A stretch of DNA of 64,000 nucleotides. Source: an uncultured Sphingomonadaceae bacterium (lineage in GTDB: Bacteria; Pseudomonadota; Alphaproteobacteria; Sphingomonadales; Sphingomonadaceae). This document shows positions 9,767 through 27,006 of this stretch, in pieces. Position 1 is the first letter of the stretch, and every line of letters begins with the position of its first letter. Where the stretch lies: positions 558,001 through 622,000 of the forward strand of contig CANMGU010000001.1 of the NCBI GenBank assembly GCA_947497455.1, written 5' to 3'. Position numbers and translations under genes: made by a program. The notes beneath the pieces were generated by a model. It ran no database searches, had not been told where the DNA came from, and worked only from the letters and a program-made list of their open reading frames with translations.

Positions 9767-9811
9767 ATCCACCGCCTAGTGGCTTCGGATACAAAAGGTC
9801 AACCGGTCAAT

Positions 9812-12800
9812 TCACTCGGCAGGCTCGAGTGCGTCTTCTTCCTCTGGACCACCCTGACCGCAGCTTTCATCGCCTTCGGCACATTCGGTGCTCTCGTCGT
9901 CGCTGCCCCCTTCGTCGCTTACCCAAAGGTCATCATTACCGGCGCCAGTGACAGGTTCATCAATCAATGGATCATCGACAAACTGTTCCGTTTCCTTGAT
10001 CTCGATAAGATTGGTTTCAAACGGATCGCTAACGACAGTCACGTCTTCATTCGGCGTAACCTCCTCTTCGATTACATCCTGCACGGGATCACCAATCTCA
10101 GGATCAATCTCAGGCGTTGGCGTTGGCGTAGGTGTAGGCGTAGGCGTTGGAGTTGGAGTTGGATTCGGCGTTGGTGTTGGCGTCGGAGTTGGAGTTGGAG
10201 TGGGATTTGGTGTAGGCGTTGGAGCCGAGCAACTGTCCGGATCGGCAATAATACACCCGTTTATGGTGCTTTGCGGTGTAAAGCCTTCCCCGATGCCAAC
10301 AGCTCTTAGTGCCGGAATGCCAGTATCGCCATCGACTGTGCCGTTTACGACAATTACCGGAGGTGAAGCCGTGGCGCCGTCAATCTGCACGGTTTGGCCA
10401 GTAAATCCACGCCGATCATCAAAATCGATGCCCACTCCGGTGTTTTGGATCAAAATGCTTTCTGCAACAGTGAAGGTCAGCGCGCCGCCACGGATCACGC
10501 CGCTATCCAAAACAATGCCATCATTGTTCCCCAACCGGCTATCGATTGCGGACGTCCCCAGACCTGTAATGTCAGCGAAAGCCTGGTCGGTCATGGCGAA
10601 AATATTGGTCGCTGTCAGCTCAAGGAAACCGACCGAGCCGAACCCACCACTGGCGTCAGTAAGCTGTAATATACCGCTCGCATTATTGAGGAAGATATCA
10701 TCGAAGGCGGTCATGCTCAGTGTGGTGCCTCCCGATGCGTTCGTAACGTTTAGGTCACCATCGACACGGATGGATTGTTCAGAATCAATCGTCAGAGTTC
10801 CGGAAAATCCGATATTCGCCATTTGCGCGCCGCTGACATTATCGCCTGTCTGTATCAGGAGATCCTGAATAATAAGGTCTGGCGTGCTGCTGCTGCCAGT
10901 GGCGATGGCAAAGAATGTCAGATCCTGATTTGATTGAATCCGGGTAAACTCGTCTTGGTCCAGGTTAAACACTCCAGCCGCGCCAGCGCCGCCCAAGACG
11001 GCCTGATTGTTGCCATTGCTTTCGATGAAAATATCGTTGGTTTGAGTAAATTCACCCAGCTGTCCCGCAGTACCGATATTAATATCGACCGAAGACAGTG
11101 AGATAGATTCACCTGTGGCAAGTGCCTGAATATCGATCAGATTTCCAGCGGTGATTGTCAGGGCACTGTCAGCGTTGACGGTGCTGTTAATAGTGACATC
11201 ATCAGCGGCCGTTACGTCAATATTGCCATTGGCACTCACCACGGCCTGACCGCTGATACCAGTTGGTATCCGACCAGCTAAATCTGGAGTGGCAACAACT
11301 TCATTGAGTTCAGCGCTACCGGCCAAACTGGTCAAACGTATGTTTCCAAATGCATTAGCATCATCCGCAACCAGGTTGCCGACGGTAACAATGTCGATAT
11401 CGCCGGCATTAGCGGTTGCGATTACTCTCAGCGCGCCGTCGGATCGCAGGAACACATTATTGCCGGTCGCCGTCAAAACTCCGCTCACCAAGGCGTTGTC
11501 GCGAACGGCAACATCTCCATCGGAGGCGGTCAGTCTTATTGTGCTGACATCCAAATTGTTAATATCAATGCCCAGATCGCCAATAAAATTGAACGAGCCT
11601 CCACTGACCGTTCCAACGGTTATCGCGCCGTCTGCGCTTGCGAAAACACCTTGCGCAGCAATGCTCGTAGCAGTCAAATTATTGACTGCCCCGGCTCTGA
11701 TGAAACTGTCGGTGGTGACATTGCCCAATATGATTGAGTCCTGGGCGCTCAAGTTGAGTGCAGACGGAATTTTGCTCGTGATGTCAACATCAGCGAATAT
11801 GATGTTGCCTGATGCGAAGAAATCACCCTGACGTGAAATATCAAGATCGCCGCTAATGTTGATATCGCCATCCACAGCACGAATTCGCAAGCCTTCTGTA
11901 AATCGGGGGTCACCATTATCGCCGGTATCGGCACCGCCCAATGTCACAGAGGTGCCCTCAAGACTTGTCTCATTGACCGAAATGACATTGTCGATAACCG
12001 CAGCACCAGCCGCCACAACTGCTATCGTCGTTCCAGCATCCAATGTCCCACCTTCGATATTGCCAACGGTTGCTGTCAGATCGATTAGGCCAGGGGTGGT
12101 GGCATCATCCAGGGTAATTGTTTCGGCCGCCAGAATTATATCTTGATCCGATGCGACGTTACCGCCCAATATATTGACGGCGTTAAACAATATGTCACCA
12201 GCGGCAAACGCACCGCCAAATGCGATATCGCCACCAGCATCTGCTTCGAAATTTCCGCCGTTGGCCGATAGCGATCCAAAGCCGACATTGCCGGTGGCAT
12301 CAAGATCGATCGCCCCGGCGACGGCAACTATGCCGCTGCCGTCAATGTCGCCAGCAGTGGCCTCCATTGTCAGGTTGCCGCCAATATCGCCGTCATTCAG
12401 TGTAACCGTTTCAGCTAGCAATGACGCATCGCCACCCGTATTAGCGGTTCCCACAATCATAGGCCCATTGGCCTCTAGGATCGCATTTCCATCAACATCG
12501 ATAAAGTTTACATCCAAGCGAGTTTGGGCAAAAATGTCCAGTTCACCGCCCTCGGCGATATCAACAAAAATTGCATCGCCGAATAAACTTGCATCGCTGG
12601 CAAAGAGACTACCTACGCCAATGTCCCCACCATCTATCGATAGGTCACCTGCACTGGCCGCGTTGATCGAAATCTGATCACCGGAAATATCGACAGAACC
12701 GCCATCGACAGTAGCGATGGAAACACTGCTCCCGGAAACGCTAACGATTCCACCATTTGCATCGCCGATGGTAACGTTGAGTGAATCGACAACCAAAGTG

Positions 12801-15800
12801 TCGGCCGCCGAAATGCTGCTAATATCGACATTGGTATCAGCAAACGCAAAAACATCACCGCCATCTGCGAAGTCGCCGGAAATATCTACTGCCGCCATAT
12901 CAAGCTGGTTGCCTGCCGTAACCGAACCAAAGTTGATAGCAGAAGCCGCGGACAACATGATATCAGAATTCGCGCTTACAGAACCCAGAGCAATGCTGTC
13001 CGCATTAATATCGATATTTTCTGCTCCGCTTGTGCCGCCGACGAAAACTGATCCGGGTGCAGCGAGGATGATATCTGTGCCCGGCACATTGATCTGATCA
13101 AAGCTGAAATCACCGCCAGCGTCATAATTTACATCGCCCAGGCCAACGGTTAAAACGCCGACAGTCATGCTGCCGGGCACCGAATAAAATCCTTCCAGTG
13201 TATCGCCGCGCCCCTCGACAGTGGTCAGCTCACGGCCTGCGTTGATTGCGGCTGCGCTTATGCTATTTCCAACCGTAATGCCCACGTCCGCGCCACTGTT
13301 GAGTGATCCGGAACCCAATAGGCTACCCGCGGCATCGATGCCCAGCAGACCACTTGTCAGTTCGGCATCACGCAGATCCACATCACCTTCGGTGCTGTTT
13401 ACGAATATTTCATCGCTGGCGATGAAGCGGGAAGGTATGCCATCAACGCCCATCACAATATTGCGGCGGGTTGAAACCAGTATACGATTGGCAATGATGT
13501 CGCCATTTTCGATAATTGCCTGAACCGGTACACCGGCCTGACCTATGGACACAATATTGTCTGCAGCAAGCCCGCCGAGACACAGATTGCCCTCAATACA
13601 ATTGGCGCTGAGCAATCCGTTATCGTCTGACTGACCAACTGCGGCGATTACAGCATTGGAGGGAGCATTGTTAATGTCTGCCGCAATTGAGCTTGCGGTA
13701 ACCGTGCCGCCGAGACCGTCAATGGCGTCAGCAGACATGACCACGGCAAAAGTGTTGGCATTAATATCTCCAGCAGCCACGATGGATGCGATTGGTGAAA
13801 GCGGAGTGGAGCTAAGAGGGGATAGGCCGCCAGCCTGCAAAAGGAGATTGTTGAAATTGGTGAACGGACTAGCCGGATCTGGCGTAGTCGCCGGATTGGC
13901 GGCGGCAACAATGCTGGCGCCAGACTGGATGATAATATCATCGCCGGTTTGCACTGTCAGACCGTTGTCCGAAATCGTGTTGCTGCCAGTCACAAATACA
14001 GCGTTGGCACCGGCATTGACGGCAATTGTGCCGGTTGATGTCACATTGCCTGTAATGGTTGCATTGAAACTCGGATCAAAAATGGCAGAAGGCGGTGATC
14101 CAGGTCCACCAAAAGGATCCAGTCCGGCCTGTATCGTAAGGTTGGGCCCTAAAACTACTTCACCAGAGCCAAACAGGGCGACAACCGGTGCGCCGGTCAC
14201 CGCTGCGTTTGCGACATTGACATTCTGAAGCGCCGAAATGTCGACTATGCCTATGCCAGCAATATCTGCCACGGTAGCATTTTGTTCTGCTCTGATAGTG
14301 GCCATATCATCGGTGTTGATGAGAGATCCGGCGGAGCTGTTGAAGTCACCTTGCGCGCGGGCATCGAAGGCTCCGGCAACATCGATCGATATTGTGGCGG
14401 GAACGGTATTGTTCGTGTGGGCGACCAAAATGGAGGCACCGCTGGTCACGCTCATCAATCCGCCAACGACGAGCTGTCCATCTCCGTCATAAGCAAATTC
14501 TGCGTTGCCAGCCACGTTGATCGAAACATCACCTGCAACAGTTATTGCTCCGCTATTTCCGGACATGAAGAAGCCGGTGCCTGGAGACGCAAGGGCCAGC
14601 GCTTCTGCGTTGAGAGAGCCGAGGCTGATCAAGCCGGCCGGATCAGTAGAACCGTCGATAATATCAATGCGTCCACCAAAACCGGACGGCATGGAACCGT
14701 CGCCAGCGTTGAAGCCGTTAGCGAACAGATCAACATTGCCTGAAAGGTCTAGGATGCCTGGGCTGCCTTCCTGAACTTCCAATATGGCGTTGCCGCCGGT
14801 ACCGATGCCGCCGATACCGGCAGTGCCATTAGTACCCATAGGGGAGAATCCGCTCGATCCGGCGTCGCCGCCTTGACCGGTCGTGGTAATCGTGACGTTA
14901 TCGCCCGTAATAGTCCCGCCTTGCGCGAGGAGACGGGCGGTGCCGCCTTGGCTGTCGCCGCCGTCTCCACCATCGCCAGCGATATTCGCATAGCTGTAGC
15001 CGCCTTCGCCACCCTGGCCGGCGGTACCAGTGCTGGACAGCGTAAATGATCCGGCACCACTTAAAGCGAAACTGGCGCCGTCGCGAACCGCTATTTCAAG
15101 AGTACCGCCATTAGCTGAACCGCCATCGCCGCCATCGCCACCATCATTGCTGAAATCCGAATAGCCGCCGGCACCAAACCCGCCAAAGGCATCGGCAGTG
15201 GTAAGAAGTGGGTCGCCAATATTGGTCAAAGCTGCTCCTGCACCGACAATTTCGAGCCGCGCAACTCCACCCGTTGCATCGCCACCATTACCGCCATCGC
15301 CGCCAATTGCGCGGGCAAGACCGCCGGCACCACCGACACCCGTCGCTGTAACCACAGGACTATCGAGCACCACGGCTGAACCGGTTATATTGAGAACTGC
15401 TGTTCCGCCATTGCCAGCACCGGCATTTCCGCCGCTAAGGCCTTCGCCACCTTTTGCGCCAATGCCACTGGCATCGACCCGATAAAGCCGGGAAACTGGA
15501 TCGTCCTGTCCCAGGTTGATTGTCGCGGTACCGCCTGTACCACTGCCGCCATTACCGGACGTTTGGCCGGTAAAGCCAACAGGTGGAATGGGACTACCAT
15601 ATGCACCATAGCGGATCGGCTCGTCAGGATCGTTACCCGCATCCCCACCGGTTCCGACCGCCGTAACCTCGGTGCTGGTAAAAGTTACATCGCCGCTATT
15701 ATTATTGAAAACTGCGGTACCAGCTATTGCGTCGCCGCCATCACCGGCGCGCGCGGATGGTGACGGTGTTCCAATCAAAGCATCGCCACCGCGGCCGCCA

Positions 15801-18800
15801 TCAGTGCTTGCAGAAATTGATGCGAGTTCAGCTGAAATCGTCGCTGTCCCATCAAGGTTAAAAATTGCAGTCCCGCCTACCGAATCACCGCCGCGCCCGG
15901 CATCGACGCCTATTCCTACGCCGCCTCGGCCGCCAAAACCACCAGCCGTGACATTCAAATCGTTGGTGACCGTCAGGCTGCCGGCATTGGCATTAAATGT
16001 TGCATTGCCGCCAATACCCGATCCGGCATTACCAGCGTTTACACCTTCTATATCACGCGCGTTGCCGCCATCCCCGCCGATGCCATCGGCTGAGACTGTG
16101 AGATTGTCGACGACCACAATGGCGCCGTTCAGGTTGAACACAACATCTCCGCCCCGTCCATCGCCGCCATCGCCAACAACACCTTGCGTTTGAGGAAAAC
16201 CAAATGGCTCTGAGTCACCCCCGAAAGAGGCAATGCCTCCGGCAGAAACGAATACGTCATTGGCGGAAAAATTTCCGTCAGTCAGATTGAAGACGACATT
16301 GCCCCCAGAACCATTTCCACCTTGCCCTCGGACCGGAATCGGGACCTCACTAAAGTCGTTAATCGATCCATTTGCGCTGCTGAAGAAGGTTTCCGCTGAA
16401 AAGATGCCACCATTTTCAAGATTTAGAGTGATGTTTCCGCCAACACCCAGGCCACGTTCAGCCGCAAAGCCATCATCGGCATTGCCACGCCCCGTACCGC
16501 TGGCTGACACTTGTATCGAAGGCGCGCCAAAGGGCCCATCGACAAGAGCGATTGTCCCATTATCAATAGTGATTAAAATATCGCCGGCAGTTCCGGTACC
16601 GCCTTGCGTACGCGAGAGCGCACCTGCGGTTGCAACAAACTGACTTCCGGTCAAGCTTGCGCCATTTTGCACGGCAATATCAATCGTTCCGGTTGTGCCA
16701 TCAGAAACAGCATCTGCAGAAGCTCTTGTCGTGCGAAATGACGAAAATCTGAAACTGGACGAATCTACAGATGAGTTATCAATGAGCAGGTTAACATTGC
16801 CGCTGCTGGACGCTGTGCCAGCGGTGCTCGCATCGCCTCGCGCCGCCAATTCTAGTTGACCGGTAAGCGATAAATCTGATCCGTTAATGAGGTCAAGCGA
16901 CAGCTCACCAGCGGTCCCACTGCCTTCGAACTCTGAAGATAATGACAAGTTGGTGCCAGTTAGTGCGGTATTATCGAACGTAACGGTGAGGTCGCCCGAT
17001 TCTGCCGGTCCAGCTATTTCCTCGCCAGCAGCGTTAAAACCAATATCTGCTTCGGCCCCATTTTCAAAGGTGAGGGTGCCGGTAAGGTTGACCGTGGCAT
17101 TAGTGAAATTGGCAGTGATATCTCCAGCATTCGCTCCGTTTTCCGATGCTGTAACATTATCCGTTGAGTTTCTGGTACCACGCGCTCCGGCTCGAAATGA
17201 AGTCGGGCCGAGATTGATGTTCCCATCGGTTACATTGAGGTTAATCGTACCGCCGCTGTTGGTGCCGCCAGTGGCAGTGCCATTGGAATTATTGCCCGCT
17301 TCACCATTTGCCAAAAATTGCAAGCCGCCACCCCCACCGGCACCGTTCGTAAGCGTACTGCCGGTCCCTGTAACATTGACGTTAATCGTTCCACCGGTAG
17401 ACTCGCCAGCAGTCACGGTACCCATATTCGGTGCTGCAGACACATCAAATACAGAGCTTGATGGATTTGCACCGCCGTTTATGTCCAGCAATCCGCCCGC
17501 TATAATGTCCAGATTGATTGTGCCGCCCAACGTATCTTCACCTTGTTCAACTGGTGAAAAGCGGCTGCGACGGCCGGCTATGCTAGCATTGATAGTGAAC
17601 TCATCACCGATAACAATCTCGCCGGAACCCGGTATTCTGGTGCCGCCACCACTGGCGAGAATGTCAACCGTTCCGCCTTGCGCTTCATCAAATGCGTTGA
17701 TCGTAAGGCTGCCGCCAATGTTGATTGAAGACGTATTGCGAGCAATTATTTGCGCGCCGGTAACAGCATTGAGTGCAACATCACCATCAATATCGATCAG
17801 GCCCGAATCCCCGCCAGCTTCCAAGCGGATGGCATCGCCTGCAGTGAAAGTGAGGTCGAGCGAATTGAAGTCTTGTGCCCCGGTAACAGGCGCTCCAAGC
17901 AGATCCTGAATGACAATATTGTTGTTGGAAAAGGCCTCAATATCATTGCTAAAATTTAGGCCGCTGAGGTTGATGCTCCCATTTAGCGCCGGGTTCACTT
18001 CTTCATCGATTGTAACCGTGAAATTTTCGGAAAAGCTGCGACCGGTAGAGTCAATGTCGCCGCCCGCACTTAAGATGATTTTACCATCGGCCTGCGTTGC
18101 TGTCGCGGCTGGAGTGTAACCAACGCTGCCTTGCAGAAGCATCGTCATAGCCTGGTTTTTTGGTAGAGCTGCGAAGTAAATAGCCTGATTGTCTTTATTT
18201 CCGCCAAATGCTGGATCAGGATTGCGCACGGGACCGGTGGTTGTGCCAGTATGCGATATCCCTACGGTGTCGGTGGTTCCAACCAACAGACTTATGTCGA
18301 ACAAACCAGAGTCAATGGTGATATCAGCTTGTTCGGCCGCGACATAAGCGACTGAACCATTAACGTTTACCGTACCCGCCTGATTCACGCGCGGCGCGAC
18401 CATTGCAATATAGCTGCCTTCTGCAAGGGCATTTATCTGGGCGCCGCTGGCAATTGAAATAGCTGATGTGCTGTTTATTGGCCCTCGAAAACGAATCTCT
18501 CCGTTCGGTCCGAATAGTCCGCCAGTTGTATCTATCGCATTGGTTGTAAGCGCCAACGATCCGACATTGATATTGGCGCCTTCACCAACAAGGATTCCGC
18601 CCGGACTGTAAAACCAAATATCTCCGGCAATGGCTCCGCCGCTGATGCTAGCAATATTTCCGTCGAGACTGATTCCACGAGTCTGATCCGTTGGAACAAT
18701 GCGATTGAGAACGGTATAGTTTGCACCACCATCACGGGTAAAGAGCAGTCCATTGTCGCGTGGCAGAAAATTTATCGTTCCACCGCCTGACTGGTCGAAA

Positions 18801-19138
18801 AGATTCCAATCGATGATGACTTGATCGCTGGTAATGGTCACCGTGTCGCTTGTTGGACCGGGAGTGAAATTACCGGTACCAAGGGTAAAGTTGCTACCAG
18901 TCAGTTGAGGGTCGGCATTGACGGCATGACCACTGGGTGAGGGCGCGGCTTGAGCCAATGCGTTTTGTGGCGCCAGCGCCAACATCATCGCGGCCGCCGT
19001 GAACGATCCACTGGCGAGCAATTTCAATTTTTTGAATGATGAAGATCGTATGGGTCGTGACCGTTCGTTGGTCGCGATCTTGCTGTCGATCATTCTGTTT
19101 TTGCTTGTCTCTGTCATCATCTTGCCTCTGGTCATCAT
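9812..19138 (-). CDS. Giant two-partner-secretion exoprotein (TpsA / filamentous haemagglutinin-like adhesin)
   Basis: A 3108-residue secreted protein. The first 64 residues form an unusually long signal peptide (basic n-region, apolar core, 'ALAQA' cleavage site). A TPS domain follows (about 65-330), with the family strand 'YSPGGILVGEGANIN' corresponding to the NPNGI region that TpsB recognises. Most of the rest is beta-helix-like repeats rich in Gly, Asn, Asp and Thr, including a Gly/Asp-rich zone at about 830-1460. Near the end come a Cys pair (about 2960), a Thr-Pro repeat stalk (about 2970-3018) and an acidic tail with Cys3086 and Cys3093. The start ATG has GAGGCGG upstream and lies 16 bases after tpsB. 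Expected location is the cell surface. A function in adhesion or aggregation is inferred from the family. Confidence 0.9.
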   Translation of the reverse strand: MMTRGKMMTETSKNRMIDSKIATNERSRPIRSSSFKKLKLLASGSFTAAAMMLALAPQNALAQAAPSPSGHAVNADPQLTGSNFTLGTGNFTPGPTSDTVTITSDQVIIDWNLFDQSGGGTINFLPRDNGLLFTRDGGANYTVLNRIVPTDQTRGISLDGNIASISGGAIAGDIWFYSPGGILVGEGANINVGSLALTTNAIDTTGGLFGPNGEIRFRGPINSTSAISIASGAQINALAEGSYIAMVAPRVNQAGTVNVNGSVAYVAAEQADITIDSGLFDISLLVGTTDTVGISHTGTTTGPVRNPDPAFGGNKDNQAIYFAALPKNQAMTMLLQGSVGYTPAATATQADGKIILSAGGDIDSTGRSFSENFTVTIDEEVNPALNGSINLSGLNFSNDIEAFSNNNIVIQDLLGAPVTGAQDFNSLDLTFTAGDAIRLEAGGDSGLIDIDGDVALNAVTGAQIIARNTSSINIGGSLTINAFDEAQGGTVDILASGGGTRIPGSGEIVIGDEFTINASIAGRRSRFSPVEQGEDTLGGTINLDIIAGGLLDINGGANPSSSVFDVSAAPNMGTVTAGESTGGTINVNVTGTGSTLTNGAGGGGGLQFLANGEAGNNSNGTATGGTNSGGTINLNVTDGNINLGPTSFRAGARGTRNSTDNVTASENGANAGDITANFTNATVNLTGTLTFENGAEADIGFNAAGEEIAGPAESGDLTVTFDNTALTGTNLSLSSEFEGSGTAGELSLDLINGSDLSLTGQLELAARGDASTAGTASSSGNVNLLIDNSSVDSSSFRFSSFRTTRASADAVSDGTTGTIDIAVQNGASLTGSQFVATAGALSRTQGGTGTAGDILITIDNGTIALVDGPFGAPSIQVSASGTGRGNADDGFAAERGLGVGGNITLNLENGGIFSAETFFSSANGSINDFSEVPIPVRGQGGNGSGGNVVFNLTDGNFSANDVFVSAGGIASFGGDSEPFGFPQTQGVVGDGGDGRGGDVVFNLNGAIVVVDNLTVSADGIGGDGGNARDIEGVNAGNAGSGIGGNATFNANAGSLTVTNDLNVTAGGFGGRGGVGIGVDAGRGGDSVGGTAIFNLDGTATISAELASISASTDGGRGGDALIGTPSPSARAGDGGDAIAGTAVFNNNSGDVTFTSTEVTAVGTGGDAGNDPDEPIRYGAYGSPIPPVGFTGQTSGNGGSGTGGTATINLGQDDPVSRLYRVDASGIGAKGGEGLSGGNAGAGNGGTAVLNITGSAVVLDSPVVTATGVGGAGGLARAIGGDGGNGGDATGGVARLEIVGAGAALTNIGDPLLTTADAFGGFGAGGYSDFSNDGGDGGDGGSANGGTLEIAVRDGASFALSGAGSFTLSSTGTAGQGGEGGYSYANIAGDGGDGGDSQGGTARLLAQGGTITGDNVTITTTGQGGDAGSSGFSPMGTNGTAGIGGIGTGGNAILEVQEGSPGILDLSGNVDLFANGFNAGDGSMPSGFGGRIDIIDGSTDPAGLISLGSLNAEALALASPGTGFFMSGNSGAITVAGDVSINVAGNAEFAYDGDGQLVVGGLMSVTSGASILVAHTNNTVPATISIDVAGAFDARAQGDFNSSAGSLINTDDMATIRAEQNATVADIAGIGIVDISALQNVNVANAAVTGAPVVALFGSGEVVLGPNLTIQAGLDPFGGPGSPPSAIFDPSFNATITGNVTSTGTIAVNAGANAVFVTGSNTISDNGLTVQTGDDIIIQSGASIVAAANPATTPDPASPFTNFNNLLLQAGGLSPLSSTPLSPIASIVAAGDINANTFAVVMSADAIDGLGGTVTASSIAADINNAPSNAVIAAVGQSDDNGLLSANCIEGNLCLGGLAADNIVSIGQAGVPVQAIIENGDIIANRILVSTRRNIVMGVDGIPSRFIASDEIFVNSTEGDVDLRDAELTSGLLGIDAAGSLLGSGSLNSGADVGITVGNSISAAAINAGRELTTVEGRGDTLEGFYSVPGSMTVGVLTVGLGDVNYDAGGDFSFDQINVPGTDIILAAPGSVFVGGTSGAENIDINADSIALGSVSANSDIMLSAASAINFGSVTAGNQLDMAAVDISGDFADGGDVFAFADTNVDISSISAADTLVVDSLNVTIGDANGGIVSVSGSSVSIATVDGGSVDISGDQISINAASAGDLSIDGGDIGVGSLFASDASLFGDAIFVDIAEGGELDIFAQTRLDVNFIDVDGNAILEANGPMIVGTANTGGDASLLAETVTLNDGDIGGNLTMEATAGDIDGSGIVAVAGAIDLDATGNVGFGSLSANGGNFEADAGGDIAFGGAFAAGDILFNAVNILGGNVASDQDIILAAETITLDDATTPGLIDLTATVGNIEGGTLDAGTTIAVVAAGAAVIDNVISVNETSLEGTSVTLGGADTGDNGDPRFTEGLRIRAVDGDINISGDLDISRQGDFFASGNIIFADVDITSKIPSALNLSAQDSIILGNVTTDSFIRAGAVNNLTATSIAAQGVFASADGAITVGTVSGGSFNFIGDLGIDINNLDVSTIRLTASDGDVAVRDNALVSGVLTATGNNVFLRSDGALRVIATANAGDIDIVTVGNLVADDANAFGNIRLTSLAGSAELNEVVATPDLAGRIPTGISGQAVVSANGNIDVTAADDVTINSTVNADSALTITAGNLIDIQALATGESISLSSVDINIGTAGQLGEFTQTNDIFIESNGNNQAVLGGAGAAGVFNLDQDEFTRIQSNQDLTFFAIATGSSSTPDLIIQDLLIQTGDNVSGAQMANIGFSGTLTIDSEQSIRVDGDLNVTNASGGTTLSMTAFDDIFLNNASGILQLTDASGGFGSVGFLELTATNIFAMTDQAFADITGLGTSAIDSRLGNNDGIVLDSGVIRGGALTFTVAESILIQNTGVGIDFDDRRGFTGQTVQIDGATASPPVIVVNGTVDGDTGIPALRAVGIGEGFTPQSTINGCIIADPDSCSAPTPTPNPTPTPTPTPTPTPNPTPTPTPTPTPTPTPTPEIDPEIGDPVQDVIEEEVTPNEDVTVVSDPFETNLIEIKETEQFVDDPLIDEPVTGAGNDDLWVSDEGGSDDESTECAEGDESCGQGGPEEEDALEPAE
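10085..10230 (-). repeat. Thr-Pro/Asn-Pro-encoding tandem hexamer tract
   Basis: About 24 tandem six-base units of the type ACNCCN (minus strand) encode the proline-rich stalk of the TpsA protein. Wobble positions vary and Asn replaces Thr at intervals, so the tract is degenerate at DNA level. Such tracts can change length by slippage in steps of two residues without breaking the frame. Confidence 0.8.
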
Positions 19139-19154
19139 CCGCCGCCTCTATTGT

Positions 19155-20945
19155 CTATCGTGACCATGGTGCGAGTTGCACCGTTAGGGTCATCAATGCC
19201 CGCGCACTATCTCGCCGGGTCTGGAAAGGTCCGCGTTTAAGCGGTACCACGGCCATCACATCCAGACTGGCCTGCCGGCCAATCGTGGCGCGTATGCCGC
19301 CGCCAGCGGAATAAATTTTCTGGGGATCGCCGGGGAAATTCTTGTTCCAGACACCCATGAGATCGAAATAGACATAGGGCTGCCAGGCAATGCCATCGGG
19401 AGAATCAGGGATCAGCGATCCATAGCTGACTTCCGTCTGCAGGCCGTATCCGCTGTCGCCGATTATTGTGCCAGGATCATAGCCGCGTCCGGTTGTATAG
19501 TTACCGCCAGAAATCTCTTCGTAAGAAAACAGCGCATCGGGTGAATATTGGAACCGCGGCTTCAACGTAAAGGCCAGCAGCGGGGTAGGGCGGTAATCAA
19601 GCTTTGCCTGGCCGCGTATCACAAATGCTGTCGGATCACCGTCAGCCCGCGTTGGAATCACGGTTTGACCAATGCACCGTATAAAGGCTGGCCCGCATCC
19701 TTCGCTGGCGCCCAATATGCCAAGGCCCTGACGCACTTCCAGTGACCCGGCCATGCCCCATTTCGGTTCAAAGGCAGAATAGCCGCCGCGACCAGAAATA
19801 CTGCCCGGCTCGATCGCATTAAAGTCCATCCGGGCATAGGCGATGCTAAGGTCATCCTCATTCGTTGTTATGCCGAAAATCTCGGTTTTCTGATCAATAT
19901 ATTCGAAACCGACGGTGCCAAACAGATTTTGCGACTGTTTGCGGATAAACGGATAGGTTCCATAAATACCAGCAACCAGCGTTTCCGATTCAATATCAAA
20001 ATTGCTGGCGAGTTCGGGGTCAGTCCAGGCGTAAGTTAGGTTGCCTCCAAAACGCAGACCTTCGCCACCAACGCGAAATTCGTGCCCCAATTGCAGTACC
20101 TGTTGCTCGTTGAAGTCGGCGGTGGAAAAAGCGCTGACCGTGGTTTCGTCACCCAGCCCGGTAATCCCGTTAAACCGAGCGCGGAGAAGGCCACCAAAGC
20201 GACCCACCTGTTTGGATCCAAAATTCTGGATATTGGTATCGACATAGACCGGTGTTCGCACGACGTTAAATTCGCCAATGACATCACCCGCTTTGCCTTC
20301 TGCGGCTGATGATACAGGCCGCAGAGACAATCGCACATCCAGTCCCGGAATATCGCGAGCGAGCAGCAGATAGCGTTCCGCCACGTCAATATTGAAAACC
20401 GGTTCGTTGGTCAGCCGGTCGATATATTGCTTCAGCAATTTTTCAGATGATCCCGCATCACCCCGGACCTGCACAGATGTCATACGGGCGAGCAGAACAT
20501 CAAATTTGACGTTGCCACCTGCAATTGTCTGGGGAGGAACTTGCACAGCGGCCAAATAGCCAGCGCCGCGCAATATTGTTGCTGCCCGATCCCGGATTTC
20601 GCAAACCACGGCAACGGGCACTTCTTGCCCGATATAGCCAGTATAGGCAGATCGCAAAATTGATCCGTCGACAACACCGAGACCACTGAAATCGACTGAT
20701 TGCAGCGTGAATTTGACATCAGCAAATTCCGGACTGGCGAGCGGGCAAGCAGATCGCTCCACGCCGCCTTCAACAGTCAGCGGCTGTGCTTGCCCTTTCT
20801 CGGCTTCACCTAGCAGGCCGCGCTGGATTTCTTCTCTTGTTGGTGCAGCAACCGATGATTGGCCCCAGGCGACACCATGGGACGACAGAATTGCCGGAAT
20901 CGATATTAGAAAAGCCAGTTTCTTTGCAGCGCGCGCTCGCAACAT
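19155..20945 (-). CDS. TpsB outer-membrane transporter (ShlB/FhaC/HecB family)
   Basis: A 596-residue Omp85-superfamily transporter that secretes the TpsA partner across the outer membrane. A signal peptide ends near residue 29 ('VAWGQS'). Two POTRA-like modules (about 75-230) follow, then a 16-strand-type barrel. The conserved loop-6 motif is visible as 'GRGYDPG' after 'GGNYTT'; in FhaC its Arg projects into the pore and is essential. The chain ends in a short polar tail rather than the usual terminal Phe, which is slightly unusual. The start ATG is preceded by GGGGA at 5-6 bases. tpsB-tpsA order with a 16-base gap is typical of two-partner secretion. It follows the FecR-like gene by about 106 bases that contain two inverted repeats. 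Confidence 0.93.
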   Translation of the reverse strand: MLRARAAKKLAFLISIPAILSSHGVAWGQSSVAAPTREEIQRGLLGEAEKGQAQPLTVEGGVERSACPLASPEFADVKFTLQSVDFSGLGVVDGSILRSAYTGYIGQEVPVAVVCEIRDRAATILRGAGYLAAVQVPPQTIAGGNVKFDVLLARMTSVQVRGDAGSSEKLLKQYIDRLTNEPVFNIDVAERYLLLARDIPGLDVRLSLRPVSSAAEGKAGDVIGEFNVVRTPVYVDTNIQNFGSKQVGRFGGLLRARFNGITGLGDETTVSAFSTADFNEQQVLQLGHEFRVGGEGLRFGGNLTYAWTDPELASNFDIESETLVAGIYGTYPFIRKQSQNLFGTVGFEYIDQKTEIFGITTNEDDLSIAYARMDFNAIEPGSISGRGGYSAFEPKWGMAGSLEVRQGLGILGASEGCGPAFIRCIGQTVIPTRADGDPTAFVIRGQAKLDYRPTPLLAFTLKPRFQYSPDALFSYEEISGGNYTTGRGYDPGTIIGDSGYGLQTEVSYGSLIPDSPDGIAWQPYVYFDLMGVWNKNFPGDPQKIYSAGGGIRATIGRQASLDVMAVVPLKRGPFQTRRDSARALMTLTVQLAPWSR

Positions 20946-20963
20946 GTTTTTCCCCGTTGTTCA

Positions 20964-20994
20964 ATATCTCCTGCGCGACCCACCTTGGAGATAT
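20964..20994. repeat. Inverted repeat in the tpsB leader
   Basis: Perfect 8-base arms ATATCTCC (20964-20971) and GGAGATAT (20987-20994) with a 15-base loop. The repeat lies 19-49 bases upstream of the tpsB start, within the expected mRNA leader. It could be an mRNA stability or attenuation element, or an operator. Confidence 0.45.
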
Positions 20995-21004
20995 CGTATT
21001 ATTC

Positions 21005-21040
21005 ATTTCACGCCCTGACCCTCACCTCGAAGCGTGAAAT
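21005..21040. repeat. Inverted repeat between the FecR-like gene and tpsB
   Basis: Perfect 9-base arms ATTTCACGC (21005-21013) and GCGTGAAAT (21032-21040) with an 18-base loop. It starts 11 bases after the FecR-like stop. No long T run follows on the minus strand, so it is a weak intrinsic terminator at best. A partial terminator, an RNase-stop structure or a binding site are all possible. Confidence 0.45.
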
Positions 21041-21051
21041 TTCCTGTTTAC

Positions 21052-21855
21052 TTAACCCTGATCTTGATCGGTTGTTGATCCTGTATCCAGTGTCTCAACC
21101 AGCAGATCGAGCTGGCTCTGACAGCCATTGGCAATTAATACCGCTGCTGCATCATCCAGATTTTGTGGCGCTTCGTTCAGCATCACGAAATTGACTTCGA
21201 CAGATTTCTCAACATTGGAACCAATGACCTGATATTTTGCGCCATTGGTCAATGGCGCTTCAGCCTTAGGCCAGCTTTTCAATGGATTACCCTTACGCCA
21301 TGCGACTTCGGTGACAGTGCCATTGGCGGGCTGTACAATACTCGCCTTGGCAGAACCGGTATAATCGGGACGCCACAGCACCAATGCATTGGCATCAGCA
21401 ACACAGAATTTCCCACCCTTGGTCACGTCGAGAAACCATAGGTTTGGGTTTTTGGGTGCAACAGTAGTGGATCCGGTGCCTGCACTGCGAACGGCCCCAG
21501 TTCGTGCCCGACTGCTACCGCGATTATTGATAAAGCTGGCCAGCCGTACGGAACTGTTTGAACGTGCTGCAGAGCCTTTGTTAAGAGAGAAAGTGCCCGG
21601 TCCGTTCAAGACCCGTGTGCCGCCTTTGCCAAGGATCGTTACGCTATCCAGCTTTTTCAACGTCAGTTTGGCGTTGTTCGCCAGTTTTTTACCGGCGGGA
21701 TAGGATTTGGCAGAGGGCCCTGTGGACCTGACCACCATATTTTGTGCAACCGCAGTCCCGCTCACACCGACCAGCAAAAGCGCGCTCAATGCCGCTTTGC
21801 CGAAGTTACGTGCCAGCTTGCCAGATTTAGCGGTTTTACCTTCAACCGAGTGCAT
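21052..21855 (-). CDS. Exported FecR-like protein of the CHAT/cyclase/TPS locus
   Basis: A secreted or periplasmic protein of about 267 residues. The signal peptide has an apolar core ('ALSALLLVGVSGTAVA') with cleavage after AVA-Q. The mature N-terminal part (about 40-95) reads as a FecR-type small beta domain: 'LKKLDSVTILGKGGTRVLNGPGTF'-like strands are typical of exported FecR/peptidoglycan-associated modules (motif at about residues 58-82). The C-terminal part has two Cys and resembles no family I can name with confidence. Start choice: ATG at 21855 has GGAG 6 bases upstream, whereas ATG at 21867 lacks a site. This start lies inside the cyclase gene (14-base overlap), indicating coupling. 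It lacks the transmembrane helix of anti-sigma FecR proteins. Confidence 0.7.
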   Translation of the reverse strand: MHSVEGKTAKSGKLARNFGKAALSALLLVGVSGTAVAQNMVVRSTGPSAKSYPAGKKLANNAKLTLKKLDSVTILGKGGTRVLNGPGTFSLNKGSAARSNSSVRLASFINNRGSSRARTGAVRSAGTGSTTVAPKNPNLWFLDVTKGGKFCVADANALVLWRPDYTGSAKASIVQPANGTVTEVAWRKGNPLKSWPKAEAPLTNGAKYQVIGSNVEKSVEVNFVMLNEAPQNLDDAAAVLIANGCQSQLDLLVETLDTGSTTDQDQG

Positions 21856-23896
21856 AGCTTTCTCCATTCTTTGTTTTTTCCAGTCGTTTCAGCAAATTGC
21901 CAAGACCAAGGTCTTCGCTATATTGCTTCATCATGGCACTAAGTGCCTGAACATAATCAGTATCACCATTTTGATGGGCCGCTATGATGGCGGTCACTGC
22001 CTCGCGGTCTTTTTGTTCCCAGTCAGGTACCGGTTCAAAGACTTCAACCGGTGTCGAACGGCCCCGTAGCGTAATCTTACCCATTGGCCGACACCAATCG
22101 AGGCCGGTCCGTTCCATCGCTTCTCGGCTGATCAGAACTTTGGTTTCGAGCGCCTTGTTTGCCGCTTCCAGACGCGCCGCAGTGTTCATGGCATCGCCTA
22201 ATGCGGTATATTGAATACGCCCCTCACCGCCGAAATTGCCAACAATAGCATCGCCATAGTGCATACCGACCCGGGTGCGGCCAATGGGCGGTACACCTTC
22301 AGGGACATTTTTGCGGAATTCCTCGCCAGCTTCATAAAGCGCATAGGCGGCTTTGGCAGCGCGTTCGCCATCATCGGGATAGGCGATAGGGGCGCCCCAG
22401 AAGGTTACCAGCGCATCGCCGACAAATTTGTCGATGGTTCCACCATATTCCAGCGCGACTTCGCTCAATCGGTCGAGATAGTCATTGAGCAACGTCGCAA
22501 CCATTTCCGGTTCGATTGCGTGACTCAGCTTGGTAAAACCTTCCAGATCGGTGAAGACCGCGAAAATTTTCCGCTTCTCGCCGTGTAGCGAGAGTTTTTC
22601 CGGATCGCGCAAAATCTCGCCAGCGATTGACTGAGGCAGATATTTGCCCAGTGCCCCCTGAGCGAAGGCACGCTGCTTGGAGTTGATGGTTCGTGCTGCT
22701 GAGCCGACTGAGGCATATCCAAAGAGCCAACCCAGAGCCCATCCGAATGCGGGCAACGTGAGTGTATCAGCGCCAATATTCTGCAGAAAGAACGGGAAGA
22801 CTAGAAAAAAGGCAAACTGGCCGATCAAGATGCCAGCGACTTTGACCGCATTGCCCATGATGAGCGCTGATAGCCCGCCACAGATCGCGACAATCAGGGC
22901 CGCTGTCCACAATATCCAACTGGGGATCGGCACCGGCATATCATCGTTCAACAACTGCGCCAGCATATGAGCGTGGACTTCGAGACCGATCATCTTGCCA
23001 TCGGTGCCTTCCAGATCACTGATTGCACCAATGGGGGTTTCGAAGCGATCACGGTCGATAAAATCGCCGCCAATCAGGACATATTTATCCTGAATAAACG
23101 ATTGCAGCATCTCCGCAGTTGCCGGATCGGCAAAGCTTTCGATCGGAAACTTGTCAAAAACCGGCATGTCTGCATTGGTGGGGACGAGGTAACGGATGGT
23201 TCCATTATTGGCTGAAAATCTGGGATTGGGTTTGGTCAATGCCATTGCCATAAACGGTGGTGCGCCGTCTTTTTCCGGTGTCCAACGGCGCTGAACGCCG
23301 TCGCTGTCGGTATTCAGTCGAATACTCGTCGGTTTCAGATTGGGGCCTTCGGCCTCGCTGAGAAAATCCTTGAGAAACTCATGTTCCGCGAAAGCAATTT
23401 CGGGATTATATTTGGGGTCTGCATAGGCCAGATAAGTGGGCGTCTGCAGCTGCTTGAAGGTTGAAAGCAACAGCGCATCATCATCCTGCGGCATGGTGAA
23501 CAGAATATCGATCCCAATCGACTTTGCGCCGGCGGCATCGATGGTTTCCAGCGCCTGTGCGAGGATAGTGCGGTCGACCGGCGATCGCTGACCAGTCAGC
23601 TTCAGCGTATCTTCGTTGTAAACGATCATCACAACCCGGTCTTCTTTCTCAACCTGAGGTGCAAAGACCGAAGCACGCATGTCGTATAGCGCGCGCTCGG
23701 CATCCTGTATCAAGGGTGTTGTCCAGCTGAACCGCGCCATCATCAGTGCAAGTATCAGGAACAAGATCGTAGAACCGAGACGGATCGGACCCAGTTGATC
23801 AAACAGACGGCGCAGCGATTGCAACACTCCGCGGGCTTCCGCCTTGACGTCGCGGCTTGATGATGCCGGGTCGGTATGGCGAATTGCTTCGGTCAT
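21842..23896 (-). CDS. CHASE2-domain class III adenylate cyclase
   Basis: A 684-residue membrane receptor predicted to make cAMP. Order: short cytoplasmic N-terminus, first membrane helix (about 40-55), a periplasmic CHASE2 sensor domain (about 60-330), three membrane helices (about 335-415), and a cytoplasmic class III cyclase domain (about 450-630). Both metal-binding Asp are present ('FTDLEGFT' and 'KFVGDALVTFWG'). The Lys in 'DKFVGD' and Asp in 'ALGDAMN' fit the adenine-selective pair, and the transition-state 'NTAARLE' Asn/Arg are kept. Adenylate rather than guanylate cyclase is therefore favoured. Its start overlaps the CHAT gene stop (TAATG), so the two are coupled. The ligand sensed by CHASE2 is unknown. 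Confidence 0.92.
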   Translation of the reverse strand: MTEAIRHTDPASSSRDVKAEARGVLQSLRRLFDQLGPIRLGSTILFLILALMMARFSWTTPLIQDAERALYDMRASVFAPQVEKEDRVVMIVYNEDTLKLTGQRSPVDRTILAQALETIDAAGAKSIGIDILFTMPQDDDALLLSTFKQLQTPTYLAYADPKYNPEIAFAEHEFLKDFLSEAEGPNLKPTSIRLNTDSDGVQRRWTPEKDGAPPFMAMALTKPNPRFSANNGTIRYLVPTNADMPVFDKFPIESFADPATAEMLQSFIQDKYVLIGGDFIDRDRFETPIGAISDLEGTDGKMIGLEVHAHMLAQLLNDDMPVPIPSWILWTAALIVAICGGLSALIMGNAVKVAGILIGQFAFFLVFPFFLQNIGADTLTLPAFGWALGWLFGYASVGSAARTINSKQRAFAQGALGKYLPQSIAGEILRDPEKLSLHGEKRKIFAVFTDLEGFTKLSHAIEPEMVATLLNDYLDRLSEVALEYGGTIDKFVGDALVTFWGAPIAYPDDGERAAKAAYALYEAGEEFRKNVPEGVPPIGRTRVGMHYGDAIVGNFGGEGRIQYTALGDAMNTAARLEAANKALETKVLISREAMERTGLDWCRPMGKITLRGRSTPVEVFEPVPDWEQKDREAVTAIIAAHQNGDTDYVQALSAMMKQYSEDLGLGNLLKRLEKTKNGESYALG

Positions 23897-26800
23897 TATT
23901 TCAAAGCAGATACCGCTGGATTGGAGCTGTTGGCGTCTGCGCTTTGATCATTGGGCAAAAATGTTCTGGAGCCGTCACCAACAATTGCAAAGGCTGCCCA
24001 ATAATAGGGATGCGATGTGACCGGGTCTTCCATCAGCTTTTTCTGCGAACTTCTGAGCGCCGTGGCAATGGATTGTCCTTGTCCCTCAACAAACAAACCG
24101 CCGATCAGGCGTTCGGTTGCCTGAAAGTCGTCCGGTGCTGGCCAATGGCTTGCCAAGACAGACCGGCTTCCGGCACCGACGAAAGAACGCACGAGTCCAT
24201 CCAAGGCGGTGCCACCGCCGCTGCTCACACCGGCATCGCGGGTGGCCTTGATACTGGCTTTGCCAGCTGTATCACAAGCAGAAAGGATGACGATGTCCGC
24301 ATCCAGTTTCAGATCGAAAATTTCGTCAAAGGCTAGCAAGCCATCGGATTTTTCTCCACCGAATGACGTCAGCAGAGCAGGCTTAGCAGGGCAGGATGGT
24401 TTGGGAGCGGTTACCAGGCCGTGTGTCGCAAAATGAAGGATACGATAGTCGGCCAAATCTGACTTTGCCAGTATCTGGTCATCCGAAAAGGCCGTGCCAG
24501 TAAGAATGTCCGACCCGCTTTGCCCGATGATCGAGCGTGCCTGAATAAGCTCGGCATCTGAGATCGGATTATTCCATTCGTTCAGCGACCAGTTGCAATT
24601 TGCATCAAGGCCTTCGGTAGAGGCCCGTACGCCGCCGATCTTGGTGTTGGCCAATATTGGTTGATTTTTACCAAGACCAAGATATTGGCGCGTTGCCCCG
24701 GAAGCAGGCGCCTTTCGTGCGTCGGCAAAACTCCGGGCCGAAACAGCGGTGCTGACGTCGGTATCCGTGCCCAGCCACTGGACGCCGGTAAAGTCATACG
24801 GATCACCATCAGGCTGTTCGATCCGAGCAAGATAACTTGCCACCGATGCGTCGTCTGCAACCAGTAAATTAACCGGCAACCGCAGCATTGCGCCATCAGG
24901 TTCAAAGATCAGATGGTTTTTGGCGGTCAGACGCTCTGACATTGGAGCGAGCAGCGCTTTATAAAGGTCGCGCGCAGTCTCTATGTCAAAGGGATAGGTG
25001 ACATATTGTCCATTCTCAAAAACGGAAATGGAAGCGCGCAATTTGTCGACTTGTTCGTCAAGCTCTGCCGCGCTGAGCGTCGCTTTATAGGCGGTTGCAA
25101 ATTGCTGATCGGCGTAAAACATGAATATGTCACTGCCAACGATCGCCATGCGCAGATAAGCTTCGGATGGCCGCATGTTGGTGCGCAAGTCGGCGAGATT
25201 GATCGCGCTTCCGGCAACGGCCCGATATTGCGGAAATTGCGACAGATTGACGATCGTCAATTGTTGACTGCGCTCCAGTTCATCGATTTCGGCAGCAAGA
25301 TCAGCGCGTCGCCGTCGCGTTTCAGAAGTGGGTTCCAGCTTGCCCAGAGCGGTGAAACGCATGCGCAGCCGTTCAATACTGCGATCCAGGTTATTGGACT
25401 GCCGGAACAAGCGTGCGGCTTCATCGGTTCCACCGCTGAGTTCGCGTGACAAGGCCGCCTGAGTTTCAGCTACGCCTGGGCGGACCAATACTTGAGATGC
25501 CTTGAAAAACTCTTCGGCTGAGCCTGGGTCATCAGTCATTAGCGTGAAATAGGGTGCTAGCTGATTGGCAATACCGGTGATGGCACTCCGCTTGCCGAGC
25601 GAGTTATCGACCACCTCGCGATAAAACTGCCTGGCCTCGTCCTGTTTTCCGCGGCGCAACAGATAGCTAGCCAGTTTGGCCTTTGCTCCGTTGACCGCAC
25701 GTGTTTCAGGATATTGGATTTCGACGAGCTCGAGGGCATTGCGCAGCAATTGTTCGGCATTGCCATATTCGCCCTGATTTTCGGCAATCAGAGCCAGTTC
25801 TGACAATATCTGCGTGCGCAGCCGAGTGATGGACGTCACGCGGCCATCACGGATCGCGACGGCTTGATTATAAGCGGTTGTCAGCGAGGCTTGGGCTGCG
25901 GCGTCCTCCCCCCGTATGCGTTGTGCGGTGCCTATCAATTGCAACGCCTGGGCATCAATAATCTCTGAGCGCTCTGCCGCAGTCAACTTGAGTTCATCGT
26001 TGAATCCAAGCAGATTGGCGGTTGTGTTGTCGCCATTAATCCGGGTCGCGATCGGAGTGGTAATAGTCAGGCTGGCTGCAAGAGCTTCTTTTTGAATTTC
26101 GTTCGCTTTGATAGGCAGATTGATTCTCTCGAGGGCTTCTTCATAGCGCCCCTGGTTGAGTAAATGCATGCCTTCAAAATTGCGCAGCAGTTTCTGGTTT
26201 ATAACATTGTTAGATATGACCGACCGGGCCTGAGCGAATAGCTCATCGGCTTCAGCAAATTCGCCAAGGTTGGATTTCTGCAATGCACGATTAATAAAAT
26301 ATTCTTCTGGATTGATATCCTGATCATCAAGACCGGCGGTGCGCTGTTGCAATGTTTCAAAAAATGCAGCAGCTTCGGCATAGTTGCCGCTCAAATTGCG
26401 ACGATATCCCTCTGCCAGCGCCTGCTCGGGTTTAAGTGTCAGGGCCTGAACGCGGGCAAATGCAAACGGATCTTCAATCGATGTTGAAGCAACGTCGATT
26501 TTGCCTTTGACAATCTTGTCGGCCATGATTGATTTGAGCGCCAGCAAGGTTGCGCTGTCATAAGCGCTAAGGCCTTCAGCAACATAAGATACGTTGCCGC
26601 GTTTCTCTCTAAAGATGGAATAGCTTACGGGTTCATCAGTCAGTTTGCAGGTTTTTCTAGCGAGGCCATCCACTGTGTCTTCGCCACTGCAGGTGATGGA
26701 ATCTTTACGATGCTGAGCAATGCGGGCGAACACATCATTCTCGGGTGAACGGAAGGCATAAACACGACCTACTGGACGCGCTGAGTCACGGCAGACTACG

Positions 26801-27006
26801 GCCCAACTGCGGTCAAAAATACTCTGCTTGGTTTTGTTTTCGAGACTGCGGTCCTGAACCTGACATAGGGTGCCATCACCGGAACCGATCGGAAAGCTAT
26901 CTCGCAACGCGACGGGCGTACCTTGCGCATAGGCAGCGGACGACGTCACAATCCATAGCGGAAGCAATGCCAAAAGCGGCAATCGAAAATTCTTCGGACC
27001 GATCAT
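23896..27006 (-). CDS. Exported CHAT-domain (caspase-like) protein with TPR-type repeats
   Basis: A 1036-residue protein with a signal peptide ('LLALLPLWIVTSSAAYAQ'), so the bulk is predicted to be periplasmic or surface-located. A unique region (about 28-175) is followed by tetratricopeptide-like helical repeats (about 180-560), then a helical linker and a C-terminal CHAT domain (about 740-1020). The CHAT catalytic pair is intact: His in 'HFATHGL' and Cys in 'ILSACDTAG'. CHAT proteins are clan CD (separase/caspase-like) peptidases or their relatives. Activity and substrate here are not shown. It is the first gene of the CHAT-cyclase-FecR-like-tpsB-tpsA array. The start ATG at 27006 has a GGGG motif about 6 bases upstream. 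Confidence 0.9.
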   Translation of the reverse strand: MIGPKNFRLPLLALLPLWIVTSSAAYAQGTPVALRDSFPIGSGDGTLCQVQDRSLENKTKQSIFDRSWAVVCRDSARPVGRVYAFRSPENDVFARIAQHRKDSITCSGEDTVDGLARKTCKLTDEPVSYSIFREKRGNVSYVAEGLSAYDSATLLALKSIMADKIVKGKIDVASTSIEDPFAFARVQALTLKPEQALAEGYRRNLSGNYAEAAAFFETLQQRTAGLDDQDINPEEYFINRALQKSNLGEFAEADELFAQARSVISNNVINQKLLRNFEGMHLLNQGRYEEALERINLPIKANEIQKEALAASLTITTPIATRINGDNTTANLLGFNDELKLTAAERSEIIDAQALQLIGTAQRIRGEDAAAQASLTTAYNQAVAIRDGRVTSITRLRTQILSELALIAENQGEYGNAEQLLRNALELVEIQYPETRAVNGAKAKLASYLLRRGKQDEARQFYREVVDNSLGKRSAITGIANQLAPYFTLMTDDPGSAEEFFKASQVLVRPGVAETQAALSRELSGGTDEAARLFRQSNNLDRSIERLRMRFTALGKLEPTSETRRRRADLAAEIDELERSQQLTIVNLSQFPQYRAVAGSAINLADLRTNMRPSEAYLRMAIVGSDIFMFYADQQFATAYKATLSAAELDEQVDKLRASISVFENGQYVTYPFDIETARDLYKALLAPMSERLTAKNHLIFEPDGAMLRLPVNLLVADDASVASYLARIEQPDGDPYDFTGVQWLGTDTDVSTAVSARSFADARKAPASGATRQYLGLGKNQPILANTKIGGVRASTEGLDANCNWSLNEWNNPISDAELIQARSIIGQSGSDILTGTAFSDDQILAKSDLADYRILHFATHGLVTAPKPSCPAKPALLTSFGGEKSDGLLAFDEIFDLKLDADIVILSACDTAGKASIKATRDAGVSSGGGTALDGLVRSFVGAGSRSVLASHWPAPDDFQATERLIGGLFVEGQGQSIATALRSSQKKLMEDPVTSHPYYWAAFAIVGDGSRTFLPNDQSADANSSNPAVSALK

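Follow-up and report, generated by a model that had tools for sequence, protein, structure and literature searches.

A conserved C-terminal tag links a giant two-partner-secreted exoprotein to a predicted exported TPR-CHAT protease in Sphingomonadales

How two-partner-secreted giants are released at the cell surface has, to our knowledge, been worked out in few cases, and the role of tetratricopeptide repeat (TPR)-CHAT proteases outside CRISPR is largely open. Both matters meet in a locus found on a contig of an uncultured Sphingomonadaceae bacterium, within a stretch of 64,000 nucleotides that was analysed as a whole and is here called the window. The locus comprises genes for a TPR-CHAT protein, a CHASE2 nucleotide cyclase, a third protein of 271 residues, and the transporter TpsB and giant exoprotein TpsA of a two-partner secretion (TPS) pair. 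What would a caspase-like protease do beside such a pair? The reading put forward here, to which we give a probability of about 0.5, is that CHAT is a dedicated protease that recognises a conserved tag near the end of TpsA and cuts off the tail, thereby freeing or maturing the predicted adhesin at the cell surface.

The ends of the CHAT-linked TpsAs that were compared share one layout, in which a cysteine pair (N-x-C-x(5-8)-C in 44 of the 48 ends examined) is followed by a linker of 47 to 105 residues and then by a conserved core, which sits 13 to 47 residues before the end of the protein. The tag core comes in two types. The first (alignment A1) is like PLIDEPVTGAGNDDLW, and the window TpsA has exactly this tag, 16 residues in length; the second (alignment A2) is like DDPVSGSGNPALM or DDPVASGGDIALYG. 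Mean pairwise identity among 26 first-type TpsAs is highest for the core (84%), against 32% for the linker and 44% for the segment that ends with the cysteine pair; for 18 TpsAs of the second type the values are 46%, 29% and 33%, respectively. A second cysteine pair follows the tag in 12 of 27 first-type tails, including that of the window (counted by eye).

Profiles of both tag types were searched over 246 genomes of the order at E-values up to 0.01, giving matches in 29 genomes for the first and 54 for the second. Once second-profile rows that repeated a first-profile place or shared its open reading frame (ORF) had been removed, 64 tag places were left, 61 of which lie in ORFs of at least 1000 residues. 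For 60 of these large ORFs a listed CHAT match is present less than 20 kb away on the same strand; the remaining one (G112) was ruled out as a tag without CHAT, as a CHAT-family gene (1.3e-245), part of which is readable, was found alongside. All 61 tagged large ORFs adjoin a CHAT-family gene. They consist of 43 profile rows, 6 ORFs already met beside CHAT and 12 new ones, and all 12 new ORFs adjoin CHAT, while the share of a genome this close to CHAT is roughly estimated at 2.5%. The other three places, in ORFs of 281, 50 and 50 residues, look like chance matches, and the search found the tag in no giant ORF away from CHAT. The window genome has three TpsB loci; only the window TpsA scores for the tag there (9.0e-19, the next E-values being 0.064 and 1.64 for ORFs of 420 and 68 residues), and none was found at its two other TPS systems. 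At the threshold used, the tag is confined in these genomes to giant ORFs beside CHAT genes, and the link between CHAT and TpsA is strengthened by it.

An earlier note on this DNA had treated the five genes as a set. Such a set could have been peculiar to one genome, or CHAT and cyclase genes could have stood without TPS genes in nearly all relatives; neither is the case. A neighbourhood search across sphingomonad genomes found CHAT-cyclase-TpsBA sets well beyond the window genome, recurring across the family, and each of the 62 members of the window's CHAT clade has TPS genes next to it, which in 60 cases include a tagged TpsA. The neighbourhood claim is right, and stronger than first stated. 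Among the 246 genomes, CHAT was found in at least 92, CHASE2 in 129 and ShlB in 106. From at least 150 CHAT matches, 120 neighbourhoods, mostly of 20 kb, were fetched and compared together with the window (121 in total), with profiles seeded from the window proteins for annotation and further stretches taken for TpsA ends. CHAT lies beside a tagged giant TpsA in 60 of the 121, TPS genes without a recognised tag are nearby in 12, and no TPS gene was detected within the stretch in 49. Eleven of the 60 tagged TpsAs were recognised by the tag and not by the N-terminal profile, and in these loci, as well as in L036 and L117, TpsB lies outside the fetched stretch.

The tagged loci show four gene orders: TPS genes followed by CHAT (25 of 60), CHAT-cyclase-third-TpsB-TpsA (20, the window among them), TPS genes followed by CHAT-cyclase-third (8) and CHAT-TpsB-TpsA (7). 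A 4-nucleotide overlap joins CHAT to TpsA in 13 loci and to TpsB in 5. L033, L049, L073 and L094 were rejected as cases of CHAT and cyclase without TPS, each having a tagged giant ORF beside CHAT. In a scan of one genome per species with the CHAT alignment, the best 80 of 411 relatives had all five gene kinds in 47 cases (ten of these with two copies of the third gene), CHAT-TpsB-TpsA in 27 and fewer kinds in 6, the stretches of the latter being 4.8 to 14.7 kb against 23 kb for a full one. These 80 include Sphingorhabdus, Parasphingorhabdus, Erythrobacter, Novosphingobium, Sphingopyxis and Sphingomonas; some of them come from genomes that are also in the order sample (L196 and G193, for instance, are such a pair), and the two sets of counts are not independent. 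The window gene order is also found on plasmid pMSHV of Sphingobium herbicidovorans, where a short tail follows PLIDEPVTGAGNEDLW at the end of TpsA. On that plasmid (L258:17096-39006) the five-gene set has a Crp/Fnr-family regulator immediately upstream and, immediately downstream, genes annotated as cytochrome c family, heme-binding and multiheme cytochrome proteins; as a query against the other loci, the Crp-type regulator matched only itself.

With regard to the CHAT protein itself, the window copy matches PF12770 (2.7e-51), and the catalytic His and Cys are kept in all 121 CHATs of the order sample, the window included. Its structure model (predicted local distance difference test score 81.9) led in a fold search to TPR-CHAT and separase proteases. 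A domain with His and Cys and, in the model, a caspase-like fold would place the protein among the caspase-like (clan CD) peptidases. The middle of the model forms a long helical TPR stretch, the N-terminal part is beta-rich, and extra cysteines are invariant. From sequence and model, CHAT is predicted to be a periplasmic cysteine protease.

How could such an enzyme act on TpsA? The exoprotein crosses TpsB N-terminus first, and its end is the last part in the periplasm; because of this direction, the TpsA end would be reachable there by CHAT. The cysteine pair, the linker and the tag would thus be the last segments within reach of the exported protease, which would meet the retained tail, recognise the tag, and cut either at it or, having docked on it, nearby. 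Since the CHAT gene is kept beside a giant with a common tag, cleavage by the protease is likely to fall at the tag or close to it. Loss of the tail would free or mature the predicted adhesin, and the timing of its leaving the cell surface would be controlled in this way. By analogy with FhaB, the TpsA end may be retained in the periplasm and removed there. We infer cleavage of TpsA by CHAT, and the mechanism is plausible.

The features on which this reading draws are collected in Table 1. All five ORFs that the earlier note had listed as same-strand genes in a row were found; they occupy the minus strand between 27006 and 9812. The TAATG overlap between the CHAT and cyclase genes was found as well. 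The overlap between the cyclase and third genes is 14 bases, as the note had it, when counted from the second ATG, but 26 bases from the first. The note's intact residues also bear inspection, both the CHAT pair (H862, C911) and the metal residues of the cyclase, whose substrate residues are intact too. Export signals had been claimed for four of the five proteins, and four N-termini do resemble signal peptides, as judged by eye alone. Terminator-like sites occur at chance level (18 found against 18.1 expected). On the same strand, a gene resembling cysteinyl-tRNA synthetase (8312-9772, named by eye) starts about 40 bases past the TpsA stop.

Table 1. Positions of the CHAT-TPS genes and of the TpsA end features in the window
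Feature	Coordinates	Strand	Basis
TPR-CHAT protein, 1036 aa, predicted exported caspase-like cysteine protease (His 862, Cys 911)	23896..27006	(-)	ORF, PF12770, model
CHASE2 class III nucleotide cyclase, 684 aa, predicted inner-membrane cAMP-making sensor	21842..23896	(-)	ORF, Pfam, active-site residues
Third protein, 271 aa, predicted exported, two beta-rich parts, cyclase partner	21052..21867	(-)	ORF, adjacency
TpsB outer-membrane transporter, 596 aa, POTRA + ShlB barrel	19155..20945	(-)	ORF, Pfam, tree
TpsA giant exoprotein, 3108 aa, predicted adhesin	9812..19138	(-)	ORF, weak TIGR01901
Cys pair near TpsA end (NGCIIADPDSC)	10229..10261	(-)	N-x-C-x(5-8)-C in 44/48 TpsA ends
Conserved C-terminal tag of TpsA, PLIDEPVTGAGNDDLW	9923..9970	(-)	tag profile match 9.0e-19

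TpsB matches ShlB (PF03865, 7.1e-17) and POTRA_2 (PF08479, 4.4e-7), as is characteristic of the transporter of two-partner secretion. TpsA has no Pfam match at 0.01; its match to the haemagglutinin N-terminal domain NCBIfam TIGR01901 (9.1e-6) reaches 25.5 bits, under the curated cut-off of 29.1, and its gene adjoins tpsB. The longest tagged ORF seen beside CHAT, near position 80804 of G121:C100, has 7555 residues. Separately, an association of CHASE2 with TPS genes without CHAT was noticed by eye in the window's own genome (G000:C1:1754315-1758430) and in 19 others of the order sample, 20 in all, where a CHASE2 ORF is divergent from TpsB and about 3 to 4 kb off; these CHASE2 ORFs are mostly of 750 to 840 residues (635 to 842 overall).

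The cyclase and the third protein raise the question of how far the system extends. The cyclase contains CHASE2 (PF05226, 1.5e-29) and Guanylate_cyc (PF00211, 2.5e-14) domains, and the two metal Asp, the Lys/Thr substrate pair, the Asn and the Arg of class III cyclases are invariant in 32 of 32 sequences, from which it is predicted to make cyclic AMP (cAMP). In 32 of 32 loci the cyclase and third genes lie next to each other on the same strand, and neither gene was met alone. The pair stands beside CHAT in 28 of the 60 tagged loci and is missing there in 32; it is an optional pair, not core. Of the five-part conserved unit proposed at first, the recurrence of the set holds, but the core is CHAT with TpsBA. 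The FecR-like label given to the third protein was dropped, as the FecR domain PF04773 is matched by none of 23 relatives at E-values up to 1. This protein has no Pfam family at 0.01, and its fold search returned no PDB match at 0.001 or better. An alignment search gave 207 relatives; the 120 listed are without Pfam domains and, where named at all, are mostly called 'hypothetical protein'. In Sphingopyxis sp. BSNA05, a 402-residue protein (P0048) runs in one frame from the C-terminal part of the cyclase into the third protein, which is either a sequencing frameshift or a real fusion. Membership of Pycsar defence was rejected, with PycC models matching the cyclase domain only (2.6e-29) and no Pycsar effector among the four proteins scanned. 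The pair most likely senses the envelope or the state of the secretion line; the third protein would lie beside the CHASE2 sensor and tune cAMP to the state of that line. The fuller picture that results, possible rather than probable, is a sortase-like logic with a caspase-like enzyme: a periplasmic CHAT would read a DEPVTGAGN-type C-terminal tag and cut the tail of the giant for release or maturation, and the optional CHASE2 pair would convert the state of the line into cAMP.

The same genes could be arranged the other way round, with the TpsA tail as a ligand and a docked CHAT cutting the third protein or another envelope protein, thereby switching the CHASE2 cyclase and cAMP in the manner of Craspase, whose TPR-CHAT cuts its target once triggered. 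The cyclase and third genes, always paired, follow CHAT directly in many loci, and a wider sample points in the same direction. The CHAT alignment finds matches of 1e-20 or better in 51 of 289 genomes from the class, 2 of these 51 belonging to the window's family; 43 of the other 49 were searched for ShlB and CHASE2, a few weak or second-piece rows being removed before counting. ShlB was found in 23 of these 43 genomes of other orders and CHASE2 in 40, and CHAT lies less than 6 kb from CHASE2 in 21, more commonly than it lies less than 16 kb from ShlB (16), with both in 10. Furthermore, the TPR-CHAT protease of Craspase cuts Csx30, according to the accessible text of two reports (PMC11106740, PMC10028731). 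We nevertheless consider this arrangement unlikely; the 32 tagged loci without the cyclase pair beside CHAT indicate that the pair is not the sole target.

Cutting of TpsA might also be dispensed with, if the TPR region of CHAT bound the tag and either kept the tail in the periplasm or guided secretion. TPR domains bind peptides, and the helical stretch of the model would suit this task, but the His and Cys, kept throughout, would be needless for a mere holder, and we give this possibility little credence.

The trees bear on a further alternative. All 60 tag-linked CHATs group in a single clade (support 0.907) that has 62 members; the remaining two are those of L092 and L106, where TpsB lies beside CHAT and no TpsA was found. 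Likewise, a clade of 41 (support 0.872) holds the 40 usable tag-linked TpsBs, and its extra member, found in L086, has the coordinates of the TpsB in the adjacent tagged G205 locus; ten control TpsBs and the TpsBs of untagged CHAT-TPS loci lie outside it. This clustering indicates that tag, CHAT and TpsB were inherited together. That the tag instead signals retention or gating to TpsB or to some other part of the outer membrane, with CHAT processing something else and linked by shared descent only, would suit the separate TpsB clade but is improbable, as CHAT remains beside the TPS genes across four gene orders and often overlaps them by 4 nucleotides.

Several observations weigh against cleavage at the tag by CHAT. 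Tagged TpsAs, the TpsBs that go with them and the corresponding CHATs each form one clade, and the tag could therefore serve TpsB and not CHAT. The catalytic dyad is also kept in CHATs away from any TPS, and by itself it thus says nothing on TpsA. Moreover, the directly compared control TpsA ends number only three: those of L166, L167 and L173, TPS loci away from CHAT, differ from the tag, and they are the three of ten fetched in which TpsA was recognised by the N-terminal profile. Seven readable TpsA ends of other-type CHAT-TPS loci carry no tag, and in the 43 CHAT-bearing genomes of other orders a combined profile did not find it, with one weak match (E 0.039) on a contig without a CHAT match. 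CHAT-TPS pairing therefore does not require the tag.

The untagged loci have features of their own. L016, L018, L063 and L072 combine a short CHAT (about 760 to 820 residues) with a TpsA of 812 to 2085 residues, whose end finishes at or next to a Cys. In L019, L021, L062 and L064 CHAT is divergent and the third gene precedes the cyclase; the TpsA end of L019 runs off the contig and is outside the seven. A plasmid of Niveispirillum cyanobacteriorum, from another order, has the order TpsB-TpsA-CHAT-third-cyclase and no tag match. Plasmid P8 of Pseudosulfitobacter pseudonitzschiae (L260:1640-9886) carries a row of genes annotated as a caspase family protein, a serine protease, two hypothetical proteins and a CHAT domain protein; of the 137 plasmid records in which CHAT was matched, this genus supplies 46.

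A predicted protease, its candidate substrate and a 16-residue tag come together at this locus as a single gene set, and the bacteria that carry it include cultured strains. Both TPS release and the role of TPR-CHAT are therefore testable by single gene removals. If dedicated cleavage of TpsA by CHAT, the reading preferred here, is true, TPR-CHAT proteases would have a job in the envelope, within a tagged-substrate system of a new kind.

Among known systems, Lap (LapA, LapG, LapD) relies on a periplasmic protease that releases a giant adhesin under second-messenger control. The likeness of the window locus would be in logic only; transporter, protease and messenger differ, and membership was rejected after a domain scan of the five proteins found no LapG-type protease, LapD-type receptor or RTX adhesin with type I secretion. 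Bordetella FhaB/FhaC also involves a two-partner-secreted giant. As described in the available part of the source, periplasmic proteolysis of the C-terminal end of FhaB governs its release, the prodomain being processed by DegP, CtpA and SphB1 (PMC8263021). These proteases are not caspase-like, whereas the window locus has a CHAT gene beside the pair, a common TpsA tag and an optional cyclase pair. Compared with Csx29/TPR-CHAT of the type III-E CRISPR Craspase, as far as the accessible text goes (PMC9729208, PMC11106740, PMC10028731), the window CHAT is predicted to be exported and has a beta-rich N-terminal part, invariant extra cysteines and TPS neighbours; Craspase itself was rejected, with no Cas7-11/gRAMP, Csx30 or CRISPR part among the five proteins. 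The Clr cAMP cascade of Sinorhizobium meliloti combines CHASE2-type receptor cyclases with a large exported TPR protein and a protein that has a FecR domain, and the window locus shares with it a CHASE2 cyclase and a large TPR protein predicted to be exported; however, the available text names no TPS pair, and SMc02177 has PF04773, which the window third protein lacks (PMC5498481). No description of the full set of parts was identified in the open-access literature, most subscription journals being outside this scope, nor in the available text of PMC5498481, and no open-access paper was found that treats DdvA together with CHAT. Set against these systems, what would be new is a regulated proteolysis of TPS adhesins, itself of a known kind, in which the putative cleavage would be carried out by an unrelated, co-encoded caspase-like enzyme at a substrate with a C-terminal tag.
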